A DNA stretch of 64,000 bases from Alphaproteobacteria bacterium (GTDB taxonomy: Bacteria; Pseudomonadota; Alphaproteobacteria; Sphingomonadales; Kordiimonadaceae). Where the stretch lies: NCBI GenBank assembly GCA_006226495.1, contig SBGU01000029.1, forward strand, positions 1-64,000. The letters are read 5' to 3'. A program made the translations under genes and the position numbers. The notes beneath the pieces are model-generated. The model did not search any database, had not been told where the DNA came from, and worked only from the letters and a program-made list of their open reading frames with translations. How positions within the stretch are numbered: the stretch's first letter is position 1; each line of letters opens with the position of its first letter. Shown here piece by piece: positions 1 through 18,699 of this stretch.

Positions 1-1071
1 GACAGCGGTTCCGTCTATTCCATTGCCCAGAATCTGCGCGCCGATGTGGCGGGCTATAATGCGGTCAAAGGCTCGCTCGACCGCGCGATTTCCGAGGTGG
101 ATATCGCGCTCGCGGGTGCCGAGGCCATTTCCGACCTTCTGAACGAGATGAAGGAAAAGGTCGTCGCCGCCAAGGACGAAGGCCTGGATGCAGCTAGCCG
201 CACCTCGCTGAACGACGATTTCACCGCACTCAAGGAACAGATTACCTCCATCGTCCAGAATGCCGAATTCAACGGCCGCAATATCCTGACCGGCGACAGC
301 GTTACCGCGATCACCGATGCCAACGGCAATTCTTCAACTACCATCAGTGTGCTGGTTACACAGTTGACCCTGAGCGCCCTCGGCCTGGAAGACGCCGACT
401 TGGTGACCATTGCCGGCACATCAGTCGCCGGTACCGTTCAGTCGCTTGCGGGCGTAACCATCAGTGCCGGCAGCGACGCTGATTTCCGCGCCGCGCTCGT
501 GAACCTGCAGAACGACAATGGCGGCAACTTCGGTGGCGAAACGATCGACCCTTCGACAGGCGTCACAACTGACGTCGTGACATCGGGCTTTGCCTCAAAC
601 GAATTCCAGCAAGGTGTGGCTGCCGCATTGGGCATCCCCGAGTCCGAGATTAATGGCACAACGGTCGACGGTTATGCCTTCGCACCGAACGTGGACCCCT
701 CAAGCCAGCTCCATCTCGTCCGGAACGGCGCCTCGTCCTACCTGACGGTCGGCGACCCGACGGCAGGTGTTGGCAACGCCTCGTCACCGGACGCGGCGGC
801 CGCCACCTATACCAACCTCGAAAGCGCCATCGACACCGTGAACACGGTGCTGTCGAACCTGGGTTCGGCGGCCAACCGGCTGGCGATCCAGCAAACTTTC
901 ACCAGCAAGCTGGCCGACAGCATCAATATCGGCATCGGCAACCTTGTGGACGCTGACCTCGCCAAGGAAAGCGCGCTGTTGCAGGCGACCCAGACCAAAC
1001 AGCAGCTTGGCCTGCAGGCCCTATCGATTGCCAACCAGGGGCCGCAGTCGGTCCTGTCGCTGTTCCGCTAA
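1..1071 (+). CDS. Flagellin, 5' end missing at window edge
   Basis: Structural subunit of the flagellar filament, secreted through the flagellar export channel. The reading frame is open from base 1, so the start codon and first residues lie outside the window; a GTG at 46 is internal and not the start. The visible N-terminal part has the conserved flagellin D0/D1 helix pattern with the FNGRNILTG motif, a roughly 190-residue variable centre rich in Thr, Ser, Gly and Ala, and a conserved C-terminal D0 helix ending in QALSIANQGPQSVLSLFR. No rho-independent terminator is obvious in the 123 bases before selD. Identification is firm; which flagellin paralog it is cannot be told. Confidence 0.93.
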   Translation, partial: DSGSVYSIAQNLRADVAGYNAVKGSLDRAISEVDIALAGAEAISDLLNEMKEKVVAAKDEGLDAASRTSLNDDFTALKEQITSIVQNAEFNGRNILTGDSVTAITDANGNSSTTISVLVTQLTLSALGLEDADLVTIAGTSVAGTVQSLAGVTISAGSDADFRAALVNLQNDNGGNFGGETIDPSTGVTTDVVTSGFASNEFQQGVAAALGIPESEINGTTVDGYAFAPNVDPSSQLHLVRNGASSYLTVGDPTAGVGNASSPDAAAATYTNLESAIDTVNTVLSNLGSAANRLAIQQTFTSKLADSINIGIGNLVDADLAKESALLQATQTKQQLGLQALSIANQGPQSVLSLFR

Positions 1072-11284: not shown

Positions 11285-11448
11285 CAATACGGCCTTGGCT
11301 TGCGGGGCCCGGGGGCCCGGTCCCGCGCACATATCGGCGCTTGCGCGCCTGTTGTCAAATGCCTTGACCCCCATGGTGCCGATTGCGCGGCGCGTCTATT
11401 ATGCTAGGGTGCGCGCAAAAGCAGAACCCCAAGCATCGGAAACCGGAC

Positions 11449-12663
11449 ATGACCCAGCCATCCATTGCCATTGTCGGTGCCGGCCCCACGGGCCTGATGG
11501 CAGCAGAAAGACTGGCCGAAGCCGGCTTCCGGCCCGTGCTGTATGACGCCATGCCCACGCCCGCGCGCAAATTCCTGATGGCCGGCAAATCGGGGCTGAA
11601 TATCACCCACAGCGAACCCCTGGATCAATTCGTGGGCCGTTATGGTACGGCACACGACCATATCGGCGCCGCTGTGCGGGCCTTCCCGCCCGCGGCGGTG
11701 CGCGAATGGGCCGCCGGCCTTGGCACCGAAACCTTTGTTGGCAGCTCGGGCCGGGTATTCCCGACCGAATTCAAGGCGTCACCCCTGCTGCGGGCCTGGC
11801 TTGGCCGGCTGGGCGGCATGGGCGTAACGCTGAAGACCCGCCACCGCTGGACCGGCTGGACCACAGACGGCGCGCTGGCATTTGACACACCCGATGGCGC
11901 CGTCGCCGTTCAGGCCGACGCCACCCTCCTGGCCCTTGGCGGCCCAAGCTGGCCGCGCCTCGGGTCGGACGGCGCCTGGGTCCAGGCACTTCGGGACAAA
12001 GGCGTGGACGTGCAGCCCTTCCGACCGGCCAACTGTGGCTTTGACTGCGAATGGTCGGCTTATTTCAAGGATCGTTTCGCAGGCGAACCGGTCAAGGGCA
12101 CGGCCCTTTCTTTCGCGGACCAGCGCCTGAAGGGGGACTTTGTTATCAGTCACTATGGTGTTGAAGGCAGCGCCATCTATGGCCTTTCGGCGGCACTGCG
12201 CGACCATATCGAAGCCCATGGCAGCGCAACCCTCAGCCTCGACCTGATGCCGGACCGCAGCACAGAAGCCGTCCTGGCCATGCTGTCGAAGCCGCGTGGC
12301 AAAAAGTCCTTCGCGACCCACCTCAAGAAAAGTGTGCACCTGAGCGGCGTGAAGGCCGCCCTGTTGCGCGAATGCCTGAAGACCGACACCCTGGCGGACA
12401 CCATCCGGCTCGCCGCGGCCCTGAAGGCGCTGCCCATCAAGCTGACAGCGCCGCGCCCGGTTGCCGAAGCCATCAGCACGGCAGGCGGCATCAGCCTTGA
12501 AGCCCTGGATGACGCCCTGATGCTGAAAGCCGTACCCGGTGTGTTCGCGGCCGGTGAAATGCTGGACTGGGAGGCACCCACGGGCGGGTACCTATTGACC
12601 GGTTGCCTGGCCGAAGGACGGCGTGCCGCAGAAGGCATGATTCGGTATTTCGCTGGCCAATAA
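11449..12663 (+). CDS. BaiN/HI0933-type flavoprotein (TIGR03862-like)
   Basis: A 404-residue FAD-dependent protein of the HI0933/YhiN family. The N-terminus IAIVGAGPTGLMAAERLAEAG is a classic dinucleotide-binding fold, followed by KSGLNITHSE and GRVFPTEFKASPLLRAW, a hallmark of the family, and the C-terminal FAD segment GVFAAGEMLDWEAPTGGYLL. Family members are annotated as NAD(P)/FAD-dependent oxidoreductases, and the true substrate is unknown in most bacteria. The start at 11449 places the glycine-rich loop near residue 8 as usual; an upstream ATG at 11383 gives an implausible leader. Confidence 0.88.
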   Translation: MTQPSIAIVGAGPTGLMAAERLAEAGFRPVLYDAMPTPARKFLMAGKSGLNITHSEPLDQFVGRYGTAHDHIGAAVRAFPPAAVREWAAGLGTETFVGSSGRVFPTEFKASPLLRAWLGRLGGMGVTLKTRHRWTGWTTDGALAFDTPDGAVAVQADATLLALGGPSWPRLGSDGAWVQALRDKGVDVQPFRPANCGFDCEWSAYFKDRFAGEPVKGTALSFADQRLKGDFVISHYGVEGSAIYGLSAALRDHIEAHGSATLSLDLMPDRSTEAVLAMLSKPRGKKSFATHLKKSVHLSGVKAALLRECLKTDTLADTIRLAAALKALPIKLTAPRPVAEAISTAGGISLEALDDALMLKAVPGVFAAGEMLDWEAPTGGYLLTGCLAEGRRAAEGMIRYFAGQ

Positions 12664-12725: not shown

Positions 12726-15533
12726 ATGCACCGGACCAGCGGCATGATACGACCAGGACTGGATAGCGTCAGCGGCTGGCTGACCTACCTGCTTCTGTCC
12801 GCACTCACCGCCGGCGCCTATGTGCTGACGGGTCGGGTCGGCCTCCTGCTTTCCACCGAAAATGGCTATTCTACCCTGATCTGGCCGCCGTCGGGCCTGG
12901 CGCTGGCCGCCATTATGCTGCTTGGCCTCAGGATATGGCCCGCCCTTGCGCTCGGCGCCTATATCACCAACCTGTCCCTTGGCCCCAGTTATGACAGCGT
13001 GTGGATGGCCATTGTCGATCAGCCCCAGAATATCGCAATCGCAATCGGCAACAGCACACAGGCGGTATTGGCCTGGTATCTGCTGAAGCGGTTCAAATGC
13101 CACGCCTTTGCGCTCACGCACCTGAGCACGATCCTGAAATTCTATGCCCTCGCAGGGCCCGTCAGTTGCCTGCTGGCCGCCAGCGTCGGCACCGCCAGCC
13201 TGTACGGGTTCGGTATCATCGGACCGGGTGATGTAGCCAACACCTGGCTCACCTGGTGGGTGGGCGACGCCAATGGTGTGATCCTGTTCACGCCGCTCAT
13301 TATCGCCTGGTCTTTGCCGCGGGACAGGACCTGGCTGCAGCGGCGGGCCATTGTTACCATCGGGGTGACTTTGGTGTTCACGCTGATGGCCCTGTTCGTC
13401 TATCACAGCCGCACCTGGCAGGAGGAAGATCTGGGGCGCCAGATACAGCACGATGCAAGCATTGTTGCCCGCGCACTGGAGTCCAGCATCGAAGGTGCCG
13501 CCAGCACCGTCTACGGCCTGGCAGACCTATTGAGTTTCGAGCCAAGCATGACCCGGCAGACGTTCGAGGCCTTCGCGGACGGCCACCTCAGGCGCATACA
13601 GACAATCTCTGCTCTCTCGTGGAACAAACAGGTCAGAAATGACGAACGGGCCAGAGCAGAGGCTATCCTGCGCGCAGACTATGGTCCGGAACGACAAATC
13701 TACGAAATCGACGCCAACGGCAGCCGCGTCCCAGCCGAAGAAGCAGATCAATATGTCTATGTGAAATATATCGTGCCGTTAAAGGCCCACGAAACAGCAA
13801 TCGGCCTGAATGTCTGGCATCAGCCGACGCGCAGGCTGGCGCTGGAAACAGCGCTTTATAACAATGATGCCGCCATAACCGCACCGGTAAGGCTGGTCCA
13901 GAATCAGGATGGGCTGGATACGCTGATTTTTGTCCCGGTCAAACGCGAGGGCCGCAACCGGGGCTTCGCAACCGGTATCATGATGACGGAGCGGCTGGTA
14001 GAAACCGCGCTGGCGGACGCCCACGCCAATGGCCTGTTATTGCAGGTCACCGATACGGCGGCCCCTGCGGGCCAGAATATCCTACAGCCCTACAGGGCGC
14101 CCGAAGGCGAAATCCTGCACCCGGATCGAGGCACCTCGCTTTTCATCAACGTGGTAGACCGCCGCTGGCAACTTGATGTCGTGCCGACCACTCGTTACCT
14201 GTTGGCGCACCGGTCGCGCACATCGCTTCTTGTGCTGGTCGTTGCATGGGTATCTGCTGCCACTCTTGGCATCCTGTTCCTGGTGATGGCCGGCCGGCAG
14301 TTCGAAACCGAGCGGCTGGTCTCAGAACGGACCGAAGAACTGGTCAGGGCCAACCGCGCCAAATCGGACTTCCTTGCGAACATGAGCCACGAGATCAGGA
14401 CACCCATGAACGGGGTCCTGGGCATGCTGACCCTGTTGCAGGACAGTGCGCTCGACGAAGAACAGCGCAAGCTTGTCGATATCGCCCATTCGTCTGCCCG
14501 CGCGCAACTGGCGCTGATCAACGACATTCTCGATTTCTCGAAACTCGAGAAGGGCCAACTGACCCTGATGCCCGAACCGCTGCACCTGCCAACCCTTATC
14601 TCGGATTCGGTAGCCATGCTGCGGCCCACTGCGGCGGCGAAGAACCTGGCCATCGAATTGGACCTCCCGGCTCGGTCGGTTGAATATCTGGTCAGCGATT
14701 CACTGCGCCTGCAGCAGGTGCTGTTCAACCTGATCGGAAATGCCATCAAGTTCACGAACGAAGGCCGTGTCACGGTCAGCCTGAAACAGAAACAGATCAG
14801 TGGCGGCGCCTGCCATGTCGAGATCGCGGTCAAGGACACCGGCATCGGCATTGCCGCCGAAGACCAGCCAATGTTGTTCGAGCGCTTCAAGCAGGTGGAC
14901 TCGTCCGCAAGCCGCAAGTACCAGGGCACCGGGCTTGGCCTCGCCATTTCGAAACAGATTGCCGAGCTTCTGGGCGGTAGCATCGCCCTTGAAAGCAGGC
15001 TGGGCATCGGCACGACCATCACGGTCAGCTTCGATGCCGTCACCACCACTGATGTACCGGCCCGCGAGGCCGAAATCAGCGCCGACGACCAAGCCGGCGA
15101 ACAGCGCACCCTGCATGTGCTGGTGGCCGAGGACAATATCGTCAACCAGCTTCTGGTGCAGAAGCTGCTGAAGAAACACGGACATGATGCAGTTATGGCC
15201 AACAACGGACAGGAAGTGCTTGACCGCCTGACCGAGCAGGCAGCAACCGGTGCAAAACCGTTCGACCTGGTGTTGATGGATATCCAGATGCCGCTGATGG
15301 ACGGGGTCGAAGCCACGACGACCATCAGACGCTCCGGCGCGGCCTATGCCGGTATCCCGATCATCGCGCTCAGCGCCAACGCCCTGCCGGAACAGCACCG
15401 GGAATACCTGGCCGCCGGTATGGATGCCTTTGTCGACAAGCCGATCCTGGTCGGGGAATTCTATGGCACCATCGCGCGCGTCCTGGGTGAACCACGCAGC
15501 CGAATTGCAGAACGGCGCAAATCCCCGCGCTGA
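12726..15533 (+). CDS. MASE1-CHASE hybrid sensor histidine kinase
   Basis: A 935-residue membrane kinase. Residues about 15-235 are a multi-helix MASE1 sensor (LIWPPSGLALAAIMLLG). Residues about 250-430 form an extracytoplasmic CHASE domain (ALSWNKQV, VKYIVPL). A further transmembrane helix near 500 leads to HisKA with His555 in SHEIRTPMNG, then HATPase (NLIGNAIKFT, KDTGIGI, GTGLGLAI) and a C-terminal receiver domain with phospho-acceptor Asp852 in LMDIQMPLMDG. CHASE domains often bind small molecules such as cytokinin-like ligands, but the ligand here is unknown. No Hpt domain is included, so phosphotransfer needs a separate partner. The start at 12726 has only a weak AAGAA upstream; 12744 is an alternative. 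Confidence 0.94.
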   Translation: MHRTSGMIRPGLDSVSGWLTYLLLSALTAGAYVLTGRVGLLLSTENGYSTLIWPPSGLALAAIMLLGLRIWPALALGAYITNLSLGPSYDSVWMAIVDQPQNIAIAIGNSTQAVLAWYLLKRFKCHAFALTHLSTILKFYALAGPVSCLLAASVGTASLYGFGIIGPGDVANTWLTWWVGDANGVILFTPLIIAWSLPRDRTWLQRRAIVTIGVTLVFTLMALFVYHSRTWQEEDLGRQIQHDASIVARALESSIEGAASTVYGLADLLSFEPSMTRQTFEAFADGHLRRIQTISALSWNKQVRNDERARAEAILRADYGPERQIYEIDANGSRVPAEEADQYVYVKYIVPLKAHETAIGLNVWHQPTRRLALETALYNNDAAITAPVRLVQNQDGLDTLIFVPVKREGRNRGFATGIMMTERLVETALADAHANGLLLQVTDTAAPAGQNILQPYRAPEGEILHPDRGTSLFINVVDRRWQLDVVPTTRYLLAHRSRTSLLVLVVAWVSAATLGILFLVMAGRQFETERLVSERTEELVRANRAKSDFLANMSHEIRTPMNGVLGMLTLLQDSALDEEQRKLVDIAHSSARAQLALINDILDFSKLEKGQLTLMPEPLHLPTLISDSVAMLRPTAAAKNLAIELDLPARSVEYLVSDSLRLQQVLFNLIGNAIKFTNEGRVTVSLKQKQISGGACHVEIAVKDTGIGIAAEDQPMLFERFKQVDSSASRKYQGTGLGLAISKQIAELLGGSIALESRLGIGTTITVSFDAVTTTDVPAREAEISADDQAGEQRTLHVLVAEDNIVNQLLVQKLLKKHGHDAVMANNGQEVLDRLTEQAATGAKPFDLVLMDIQMPLMDGVEATTTIRRSGAAYAGIPIIALSANALPEQHREYLAAGMDAFVDKPILVGEFYGTIARVLGEPRSRIAERRKSPR

Positions 15534-15607: not shown

Positions 15608-16489
15608 ATGAAAAAATACCGAGGGACCGCCCTGGCCCTGATGCTGGCCACCAGCACTGCCGCACAGGCGGCTGATGCTGTTACAGCGGATATCAAGAGC
15701 GTGGACCGCACAGCCCCGCCAGGCTTGGTGGAACTGGTGGTGCCGTCGCATGGTGCCGCCATGGTTGGCCATCTCTACACTGCCAACGGGCCCGGGCCAC
15801 ACCCGACTGTCGTGATGCTGCATGGTTTCCCGGGCAACGAAAAGAACCTCGATCTGGCGCAAAGCCTGCGCCGTGCCGGTTTCAACACGCTCTATTTCCA
15901 TTATCGCGGCGCCTGGGGCAGCGGCGGCAAATACAGCCTCGCCCATGTGCTGGAGGACGCAAAGGCCGCCGTCGCCTATGTCCGCGCGAAGGGCGAAGCC
16001 GGCGAAGACCGCATCGACCCCACCCGGGTCAGCCTTGTGGGCCACAGCCTGGGTGGTTATACCGCGCTGATGACCGGCGCCATGGATGCCGATATCCGCT
16101 GCACTGTCGCCATCGCGCCCGCCGACATGACGCCCTTTGTGGGCGCAGTCAAAAGCACCGACGTGGTCAGCACCGAAACCGATGAGCCCGTGCCCGGCCT
16201 TGATGGTTATTCCTTCGGCGACCTGATCCGGGAAACCCGGTCCGACCCCGAACATTTTGTGCTGGCGCCCAAAATGGCGGGCTTCAAGGACCGCAAGCTG
16301 ATGATCATTTCCGGCGACAAGGACACCGTGGTGCCGCTTGCGGTGCAGCAGCCCGCGGTCGATGCCGCCAATGCGGCCATGCCTGCAGCCTTCCTGCGCA
16401 TGGTCATGGATGCAGATCACAGCTTCTCCTGGAACCGCATCGCACTCGGCCATGCCGTGGTCGACTGGATGGGCACACACTGCCAATGA
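15608..16489 (+). CDS. Exported alpha/beta hydrolase
   Basis: A 293-residue hydrolase with a Sec signal peptide (ALALMLATSTAAQAADA, cleavage near residue 22). The fold is clear from VVMLHGFPGNEKN (oxyanion-hole strand), the nucleophile elbow GHSLGGY, the acid in SGDKDTVVP and the base in DADHSFSW. It belongs to the dienelactone hydrolase/peptidase S9-like group of serine hydrolases, and the substrate is unknown. Its stop is 12 bases before the phosphatase-mutase start, so the two exported proteins are probably co-transcribed. Confidence 0.88.
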   Translation: MKKYRGTALALMLATSTAAQAADAVTADIKSVDRTAPPGLVELVVPSHGAAMVGHLYTANGPGPHPTVVMLHGFPGNEKNLDLAQSLRRAGFNTLYFHYRGAWGSGGKYSLAHVLEDAKAAVAYVRAKGEAGEDRIDPTRVSLVGHSLGGYTALMTGAMDADIRCTVAIAPADMTPFVGAVKSTDVVSTETDEPVPGLDGYSFGDLIRETRSDPEHFVLAPKMAGFKDRKLMIISGDKDTVVPLAVQQPAVDAANAAMPAAFLRMVMDADHSFSWNRIALGHAVVDWMGTHCQ

Positions 16490-16500
16490 GAGGACCCGAC

Positions 16501-17484
16501 ATGATTTCCAGGATCACCCGGCTGATCGCGCCGCTGTTGCTGGCCATTACCGCCACTTGCGCCGTGGCCGCCGACGCAACAATCTATCTGGTACGCCACG
16601 CCGAAAAAGTGGCTGATGGCACCTCCGACCCGGCCCTGACAGCGGAAGGTGAAGCCCGCGCGGCCTGGATCGCCGATTATATGGCCGACAAGGGCCTGAA
16701 GGCTGTCTATTCCACCAATTACAAGCGCACGCGCGACACGGCAGCACCGTCTTCGGCGACCGCCGGGGTCGAGATACAGCTTTATGATCCGCGCAAACTG
16801 CAGGAATTTGCCGAAAGCCTGAAAAGCCTTGAAGGCCCTGTGCTGGTTGTCGGCCACAGCAATACCACGCCCATCCTGGCGGGCCTGCTGGTGGGTGAAA
16901 AATACGAGGAGCTGGACGAAAGCATCTATGACCATATCTATGTGGTGACCCTGCATGATGACGGTACGGCCACGGTGCGGATCGACCATAGCGAGCCGCG
17001 CACAGCGATAGACCCTGCCATGGGCGTGCGCAACGCCATGGCAGCGCGGCTGGCCCTTATGGCCGACGTTGCCGCCTATAAATGGCTGCATGACCTGCCG
17101 ATCGCCGACCCGGCACGCGAAGCCGAGCTGACGGAAAAAACCGTCGGGCGCGCAATGGCGGAAGGCCTTGATGCGGCCTATGCCCGCAAGCTGGTCGAAG
17201 GCCAGATGATGGCCGCCAAGACTGTGCAGAGCCGGCTGTTTGCAGCCTGGAAAGCCGGTACCGTGCCGGTACCCGTCGCCGCCCCCGACCTGGCCACAAG
17301 CCTGCGGCCCAAGATCAGCGCACTGACGGCGCAGCTTGTGGTGGCCGTCAAGGATGCAGACGCTGCATTTGCCAACTGTGCTGTACAGCAGTCGCTTCGG
17401 CAGGTTCCCCCGACCCTGACAGCCGACGCCTATGCCTGGTCGTTCGCCGCCGAAGGTGTGATCGCCGGCCAGGCCTGCAACTGA
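16501..17484 (+). CDS. Exported fusion: histidine phosphatase plus AroQ-gamma chorismate mutase
   Basis: A 327-residue exported protein with two enzyme domains. A signal peptide ends near ATCAVAADA. Residues 25-165 form a histidine phosphatase with the catalytic YLVRHAEK (His33) and the second histidine in VVGHSNT. Residues 174-327 match secreted chorismate mutase (Rv1885c, Salmonella AroQ). Arg183 and Lys194 are 11 apart, as Arg49 and Lys60 are in Rv1885c. Arg206 follows 12 later, Gln243 falls at the Glu109 position, and two C-terminal cysteines stand where the family disulfide lies. The mutase converts chorismate to prephenate in the periplasm. The start at 16501 has AGAGGA eight bases upstream. 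This pairing is unusual and is discussed as a finding. Confidence 0.88.
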   Translation: MISRITRLIAPLLLAITATCAVAADATIYLVRHAEKVADGTSDPALTAEGEARAAWIADYMADKGLKAVYSTNYKRTRDTAAPSSATAGVEIQLYDPRKLQEFAESLKSLEGPVLVVGHSNTTPILAGLLVGEKYEELDESIYDHIYVVTLHDDGTATVRIDHSEPRTAIDPAMGVRNAMAARLALMADVAAYKWLHDLPIADPAREAELTEKTVGRAMAEGLDAAYARKLVEGQMMAAKTVQSRLFAAWKAGTVPVPVAAPDLATSLRPKISALTAQLVVAVKDADAAFANCAVQQSLRQVPPTLTADAYAWSFAAEGVIAGQACN

Positions 17485-18699
17485 TCAGGCTTCATAGCCA
17501 AATGGATCATCGATGCTGTGGCTTGGTTTGGTGAACCATTTCGGGCCGGCGTCGGTCATGTAGAAATGATCCTCCAGCCTCACACCGAAATCGCCATACA
17601 GGCAGATCATCGGCTCGTTTGAAAAACACATGCCGGGCTGCAGCGGCGTGTCGTCGCTGCGCACAAGATAGGGCCATTCATGAATATCGAGGCCGATGCC
17701 GTGCCCGGTGCGGTGCGGCAGGCCCGGCACCGCATAGTCGGGGCCATACCCCTGCGTTTCCAGGTATTTGCGCGCCGCCACATCGACATCGCCGCAGCGC
17801 GTACCGATCTTTGCCGCCTCGAAGGCAAGCGCCTGCGCCGCTTTTTCATGGTTCCAGACCGCGCGCTGGTGCGCGCTGGGCATGCCATACACATAGGTGC
17901 GGGTGATGTCGGAATTATAGCCTTCAAGCTGGCAGCCGGTGTCGATCAGCACCATGTCGCCGTCCTTCAGGGTCTGCGGTTCCTTCACCCCGTGTGGATA
18001 GGCGGTGGCTTCGCCAAACAGCACAATACAGAAGCTGGAGCCGCGCGCACCCACGGCGCGGTGCGCCCGGTCGATGAAAGCGGTCACCGCGGTGGTGCTG
18101 ATGCCGGGCTTCAGGATACGAGCCGCAGCCTTGTGGACCTCGAGGGTCATGTCCTTTGCGCGCTGCATGAGCGCAAGTTCGGTCGGCGACTTGCACATGC
18201 GGCAGCCGGCGGTCACAGGGGCGGCATTCACGAAACGGGTGCCGGGGTTCGCGGCACGCAAGCCTTCGGTGAGGAAAAAGGGCGATGCTTCATCAAGCCC
18301 GATGGTCGCGCCCTTGAGGCCAAGGCCGTCCAGCATGGCGCCAAACAGCACATAGGGGCTTTCATGCTCCTGCCAGCCATGCACCTGGCCCTCAATGAAC
18401 ATATAGTCCCGAAGTGTGCTGACCTCGAATGCGGGCGCGATATAGGCCAGCGGCCCTTCGGTCGGGATCAGGGCACCCACCATGCGTTCGCTCGCGTACC
18501 AGCGTGTACCCGTGAAATAATAGAGGCTGGTGCCGGCATTCACATAGATGGCAGCAAGACACTGTTCGCGCATCAGGGCCTGGGCACGCACGACCCGGCT
18601 CTCATATTCCGCCTGCGTGATCGGGGCCGCGCCTGCTGTCATGTCCTGCAGCCGCGCCAGTTCCGCCGCTTCTGTTGATCCACCGATGCCGATTGCCAT
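17485..18699 (-). CDS. M24 family metallopeptidase (Xaa-Pro peptidase-like)
   Basis: A 404-residue pita-bread peptidase or creatinase-fold enzyme. The five metal ligands are present: Asp in LIDTGC, Asp in NSDITR, His in RTGHGIG, Glu in SNEP and Glu in RLED. The N-terminal creatinase-like domain occupies residues about 30-165. No signal peptide is seen, so it is cytoplasmic, unlike the paralog at 37892-39172, with which it shares the layout and many segments (CRMCKSPTELALMQ against CRMYKSKAELALMH). GAGAGGG precedes the start. It likely cleaves Xaa-Pro or other dipeptides. Confidence 0.9.
   Translation of the reverse strand: MAIGIGGSTEAAELARLQDMTAGAAPITQAEYESRVVRAQALMREQCLAAIYVNAGTSLYYFTGTRWYASERMVGALIPTEGPLAYIAPAFEVSTLRDYMFIEGQVHGWQEHESPYVLFGAMLDGLGLKGATIGLDEASPFFLTEGLRAANPGTRFVNAAPVTAGCRMCKSPTELALMQRAKDMTLEVHKAAARILKPGISTTAVTAFIDRAHRAVGARGSSFCIVLFGEATAYPHGVKEPQTLKDGDMVLIDTGCQLEGYNSDITRTYVYGMPSAHQRAVWNHEKAAQALAFEAAKIGTRCGDVDVAARKYLETQGYGPDYAVPGLPHRTGHGIGLDIHEWPYLVRSDDTPLQPGMCFSNEPMICLYGDFGVRLEDHFYMTDAGPKWFTKPSHSIDDPFGYEA

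Follow-up and report, generated by a model that had tools for sequence, protein, structure and literature searches.

A predicted exported histidine phosphatase-chorismate mutase fusion in Kordiimonas-like bacteria

Introduction

Cyclohexadienyl dehydratase (CDT) is the next enzyme after chorismate mutase (CM), and the closest described counterparts of the protein considered here join the two. A study of such exported CM-CDT fusions (PMC10520331) reports them only from gamma- and betaproteobacteria and treats the reason for which bacteria export the mutase as unsettled. It also cites a proposal for Pseudomonas aeruginosa, the 'hidden overflow pathway', by which phenylalanine would be made from chorismate outside the cytoplasm. 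Here, we analyzed a 64,000-nucleotide stretch of DNA (the window; contig SBGU01000029.1 of assembly GCA_006226495.1, Kordiimonadaceae) in which one gene, at 16501..17484 on the plus strand, encodes a histidine phosphatase and an AroQ-gamma chorismate mutase behind a single signal-like start. This phosphatase-chorismate mutase fusion is a rare new architecture among exported mutase fusions, not a new kind of system. Genomes are denoted by G-numbers, G000 being that of the window, and loci by L-numbers.

Results

The reading frame runs uninterrupted from 16501 to its stop codon at 17482-17484 and encodes 327 amino acids (the stop is included in the gene coordinates); another in-frame ATG, at 16486, overlaps the stop codon of the preceding hydrolase gene. 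Residues 1-23 (16501..16569, plus strand) resemble a signal peptide as read by eye, with a basic start, a hydrophobic core and A-V-A before ADA, and stand ahead of the phosphatase half; a predicted structure model places a helix at residues 6-18, within this segment. Cys20 was considered as a lipoprotein site and dropped by eye, the residue before it being Thr. There follow, on the same strand, a SixA-sized histidine phosphatase domain (residues 26-168, 16576..17004), a junction (residues 169-173, 17005..17019) delimited by alignment with the unfused proteins of Kordiimonas gwangyangensis, G006 and G011, and an AroQ-gamma chorismate mutase domain (residues 174-327, 17020..17481). Both folds, phosphatase and chorismate mutase, are displayed by the model. 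Profile matches, conserved residues and the model together show one putatively exported polypeptide with two apparently complete enzymes, a SixA-like phosphatase at the N terminus and an AroQ-gamma mutase at the C terminus, both of which are predicted to be active. A preliminary description of this DNA had already proposed a single frame with a signal peptide, a phosphatase with His33 and a full AroQ-gamma mutase; Pfam, TIGR01806 and the model agree, the signal peptide being judged by eye.

The Pfam profile His_Phos_1 (PF00300) matched residues 28-95 (E value of 1.1e-13) with 51.7 bits against a gathering threshold of 21.7, covering only positions 1-74 of the 194 in the profile. Arg32, His33, Arg76 and His119, which we take to be the Arg-His pocket and the second catalytic His of branch 1 histidine phosphatases, were invariant in all 28 phosphatase rows aligned, and the phosphatase fold of the model fits the same branch. 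Because the fold matches of this half scatter across SixA, MutT1, RosC, phosphoserine phosphatase and others, no substrate can be chosen for it. None of the phosphatase relatives in other groups (L033-L041) had an adjoining relative of the CM, the hydrolase or the flavoprotein of this locus (BLASTP, 1e-5); the 11 phosphatase-relative loci came from a pattern-limited scan.

In the C-terminal half, TIGR01806 matched residues 178-281 with 84.5 bits, over its curated cut-off of 74.15 (a search with this profile and with His_Phos_1 being the check that the preliminary description had suggested), and Pfam CM_2 matched residues 179-243 (E value of 3e-9, over the gathering score), both within the span assigned to the mutase. 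An alignment to MtCM (Rv1885c) was examined at the ten active-site residues listed in PMC10520331. Six were identical, Arg183, Lys194, Ile201, Asp203, Arg206 and Arg269 corresponding to MtCM Arg49, Lys60, Ile67, Asp69, Arg72 and Arg134, and the equivalence of Arg183, Lys194 and Arg206 proposed earlier was thereby borne out. At the positions of MtCM Gln76, Thr105, Glu106 and Glu109, the protein has L210, A239, K240 and Q243, while the residues given for CMCDT enzymes are Val, Ala, Lys (one Ser) and Gln (PMC10520331); three of the four thus match, and the fourth, L210, is likewise hydrophobic. The two C-terminal cysteines noted earlier, a putative disulfide pair, were found as Cys293 and Cys326 in the C-terminal subdomain, and such a pair, 26-35 residues apart, is present in all 11 Kordiimonas CM rows. 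Residues 169..327 of the model superpose on MtCM 35..198. As a separate observation, Ala takes the place of MtCM Asp69 in two of these 11 rows, those of the G004 fusion (L042 6100-7101) and the G010 mutase (L043 5779-6297), and the remaining nine have Asp.

The junction contains neither a phosphatase stop nor a mutase signal peptide, and in the alignment the end of the phosphatase (SEPRT..) coincides with the mature mutase N terminus found elsewhere; the SEPRT ending itself matches that of the unfused phosphatases of K. gwangyangensis, G006 and G011. As the assembly is a draft of 60 contigs, the possibility that misassembly or a sequencing error had linked two separate genes, which the preliminary description had also raised, had to be weighed. 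Such an error is extremely improbable. The joint is 16-17 kb into a contig of 185 kb, and a single base error would be insufficient, as a mutase signal peptide is absent from the DNA and the junction is too short for one. Moreover, a fusion with 47% identity to that of the window occupies the corresponding locus in G004, of the same genus, and this second fusion, together with the junction lacking a signal peptide, rules the artefact out.

TIGR01806 was run on four overlapping genome sets, drawn from the class (385 genomes, 11 of them over the cut-off), the order (396 genomes, 11 over), the phylum (398 genomes, 17 over) and a different class (293 genomes, 1 over); in all, 36 different genomes held an over-cut-off AroQ-gamma mutase. 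A phosphatase was sought in the CM frames by BLASTP at 1e-5 and with a profile built from the 28 aligned phosphatase rows, which gave the window protein 215 bits; the CM profile used alongside includes fused rows. The phosphatase fusion was borne by two of the 36 genomes (G000 and G004) and a CM-CDT fusion by six. The latter, exported and with the CM N-terminal, occurred in 6 of the 11 over-cut-off genomes of the class sample, that is, in relatives from the Alphaproteobacteria (L079 200-1543, L081 1423-2691, L082 565-1923, L083 592-1992, L084 613-1959 and L085 643-1932); L079 and L081 were called by Pfam and all six by motif, and L187, under the cut-off, was recognized by reading as a further CM-CDT protein. 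L079 and L081 match SBP_bac_3, the domain with the CDT fold, for which the window fusion gave no match at E ≤ 1. The long CM frames L108, L110 and L113 contained CM only. None of the 29 sub-cut-off CM matches examined (L098, L099, L115-L127, L187-L196 and L198-L201, a set that leaves aside 23 of 40 in the phylum sample and most short ones in the class sample) fitted the phosphatase profile at E ≤ 1.

The preliminary description had named no known phosphatase fusion, in agreement with the open-access literature, in which we found no published phosphatase-chorismate mutase fusion (subscription papers and domain-architecture databases were outside the scope of the search). The word 'phosphatase' is absent from PMC10520331, an open-access paper that names chorismate mutase and histidine phosphatase together uses the terms, in the matching passages, for unrelated fusions, and no open-access report of a chorismate mutase in Kordiimonas was found.

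The fusion gene lies within a conserved locus whose left edge is an HI0933-like flavoprotein gene (11383..12663, plus strand; PF03486, 1.3e-63), kept in G004, G006, G010 and G011, and whose right edge is an M24 peptidase gene (17485..18699, minus strand; PF00557, 7.8e-58), kept in G004, G010 and G011; the G006 contig ends short of the peptidase, 182 bases beyond the phosphatase. Between these edges G000 has a kinase, a hydrolase and the fusion, and G004 the fusion and a gene without a Pfam match at 0.01. G010 has the hydrolase, phosphatase and mutase, with 5 bp between phosphatase and mutase and a signal-like start on both of them. G011 has the hydrolase and the mutase alone with no phosphatase, and G006 the hydrolase and phosphatase followed by the contig end. 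The alpha/beta hydrolase of the window has a signal-like start (15608..16489, plus strand; Abhydrolase_6, 5e-11). It had been described as lying 12 bases upstream of the fusion, and it is indeed the upstream gene on the same strand, but its stop ends at 16489 and the gap is 11 bases. Among 18 genomes of the genus that were searched, 12 had the hydrolase; it adjoined the phosphatase or the mutase in just four (G000, G006, G010 and G011) and gave no match in G004, where the fusion is found. The gene between flavoprotein and hydrolase in the window encodes a MASE1-CHASE-HisKA-HATPase-receiver hybrid kinase (12726..15533, plus strand), found inside the locus only in G000 among the five genomes that have it; it is possibly a sensor for a periplasmic compound.

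The relatives of the window genome include K. gwangyangensis (L031) and K. sediminis (L032). The phosphatase and mutase of K. gwangyangensis are encoded by separate genes (L031 5992-6510 and 6516-7034), 5 bp apart and with two signal-like starts; G010 and L031 encode the same two 172-residue proteins and were counted as one genome. Across the genus, the phosphatase occurred in 16 of 19 genomes and an over-cut-off mutase in 11 of 19, and the ten genomes with both comprise two with the genes fused, one with them adjacent and seven with them apart. Five other Kordiimonas genomes (L062, L063, L065 and L066, plus L064 with a gap) have the exported CM in a different conserved neighbourhood. In four of the five, it sits 21-34 bases 5' of a UbiD-family gene, and the neighbourhood also holds genes of the VOC, M20 peptidase and alpha/beta hydrolase families (from clusters; Pfam was run on the L066 genes only).

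The relationship between fused and unfused genomes was examined in a UvrA tree of 20 rows, for which 20 of 29 genomes were kept (G001, G008, G029, G032, G033 and G036-G039 were left out); rpoB was not used as a marker, as its search gave no match in G000 and G004. G000 was paired with G011 (support of 100/99) and G004 with G006 (98/96), and a grouping of G000 with G004 was rejected (p-AU of 4e-11). Because UvrA separates the two fused genomes, G011 and G010 are unfused and the G006 phosphatase has its own stop, the simplest account from tree and parsimony is that the fusion probably arose twice in Kordiimonas-like bacteria. Since the unfused arrangement exists in K. gwangyangensis, each fusion would be a merger of two adjoining genes for separately exported proteins, brought about by loss of the phosphatase stop and of the mutase signal peptide.

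Several results leave the case for two origins short of proof. With the fused rows held together, the constraint was rejected neither in the CM tree (35 rows, fused rows included; p-AU of 0.232) nor in the phosphatase tree (28 rows, G032 left out; p of 0.429), and the domain trees therefore neither back nor reject a single origin; in addition, G006 could hold a mutase past its contig end, 182 bases beyond the phosphatase. One fusion passed on by transfer, or one with later splits, is thus possible. In its fuller form, this explanation has a single ancestral fusion that was split later in G010 and G011, or moved between lineages by recombination, and the same domain order and almost the same joint in the alignment speak for it as well. 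We nevertheless consider it rather unlikely, as every split would demand a new stop, start and signal peptide, and as the window mutase is closest in the CM tree to the unfused mutase of G011 (95/92), the same pairing that UvrA gives.

Strong stand-alone CDT matches were obtained in only 3 of 40 genomes, G000, G010 and G011 (query, the CDT half of L079; threshold of 1e-15), as an exported CDT-like protein (L181 4061-4795, L182 3819-4511 and L183 3867-4577, respectively); in G000 this gene is on the minus strand of L181 and lies elsewhere in the genome, outside the 64-kb window. The best matches of the G000 protein were cyclohexadienyl dehydratases (6wup, 8.5e-56; 3kbr and 5hpq, about 6e-44), and nine PaCDT residues (listed in PMC10520331) were kept in all three proteins as invariant columns with the same spacing. 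NCBIfam returned only solute-binding-protein models for it, all below their cut-offs, and the CDT name was adopted because the structure-bearing relatives and the nine residues agree. In G010 and G011 the gene is flanked by that of a LysR-type regulator on one side and that of an MFS transporter on the other, with one extra gene between regulator and CDT in G000 (regulator and transporter were profile-searched for G000 only, and both were below curated cut-offs). All three genomes have the HI0933-hydrolase-(phosphatase)-mutase-M24 locus, and they make up three of the four genomes whose mutase is at this locus.

Discussion

The explanation that we favor as a whole, and think reasonably probable, is that two neighbouring genes for exported proteins were fused, most simply twice, that the halves act independently, and that the mutase could supply prephenate to CDT. 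The two enzymes would be made and exported in equal amounts and would work side by side in the periplasm without channelling; in the CM-CDT fusions, neither a catalytic gain from fusion nor channelling was found (PMC10520331). The mutase would turn stray chorismate into prephenate in the periplasm, from which the separate exported CDT could make phenylpyruvate, as in the overflow pathway proposed for Pseudomonas. Such a two-step periplasmic route is what the co-occurring stand-alone CDT would offer.

Against this account stand the replacement of MtCM Asp69 by Ala in G004 and G010, the lack of a strong CDT match in G004 despite its fusion (weak matches of 1e-5 to 8e-4, none at 1e-15) and the lack of any CDT match at 1e-15 in 8 of the 11 genus genomes with a mutase. 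Furthermore, G000, G010 and G011 fall in one subclade of the UvrA tree with G004, G006 and G007 (support of 87/85, not starred), and shared descent may therefore explain the co-occurrence of CDT with the locus.

A functional coupling, in which phosphatase, mutase and hydrolase act on one exported or incoming aromatic compound, such as a phosphorylated or esterified conjugate, and in which the fusion was selected twice for connecting steps of a single route, appears unlikely. It would accord with two independent fusions at one locus, themselves probable, with the spacing of the hydrolase, phosphatase and mutase genes, between which there are 2-26 bases wherever they adjoin (G000, G006, G010 and G011), and with CDT in three of the four genomes whose mutase is at this locus. 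However, chorismate and prephenate bear no phosphate, and hence no direct step sequence between phosphatase and mutase is evident. The genes are apart in seven of the ten genomes with both, G004 lacks a hydrolase match, and fusion comes easily to neighbours separated by 5 bp, so that recurrence need not imply selection. The earlier proposal that the pairing joins exported aromatic metabolism to phosphate release is weakened by the same distribution, with the phosphatase in 16 and the mutase in 11 of 19 genomes. Very unlikely, in our estimate, is the most elaborate version, in which hydrolase, phosphatase, mutase and separate CDT would make up an exported aromatic route confined to one Kordiimonas subclade. 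Here, the phosphatase would free or unmask the molecule of the mutase, and the coupling would have favored fusion twice.

The small branch 1 phosphatases (SixA, RosC and the HP domain of MutT1/Rv2985) share 14-23% identity with the phosphatase half, which differs in being exported, as judged by eye from its signal, and fused. Compared with the monofunctional AroQ-gamma enzymes (MtCM/Rv1885c and Burkholderia thailandensis 6cnz), the mutase lacks its own signal peptide and stands behind a phosphatase. The unfused pair of K. gwangyangensis has the same locus and the same two domains and differs in consisting of two genes with two signal-like starts; unfused genes being kept in such close relatives, a direct comparison of the two forms is possible. 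With the CM-CDT and CDT-CM proteins (AfCMCDT, JbCDTCM and DsCDTCM; PMC10520331) the window fusion shares predicted export, an AroQ-gamma half and the status of a rare proteobacterial two-enzyme fusion, and with most CMCDTs also the residues at the positions of MtCM Thr105, Glu106 and Glu109. Unlike in those fusions, the partner is a histidine phosphatase, the CM forms the C-terminal half and retains two paired cysteines missing from them, and CDT is a separate gene; the phosphatase is a second, different type of partner for an exported chorismate mutase.
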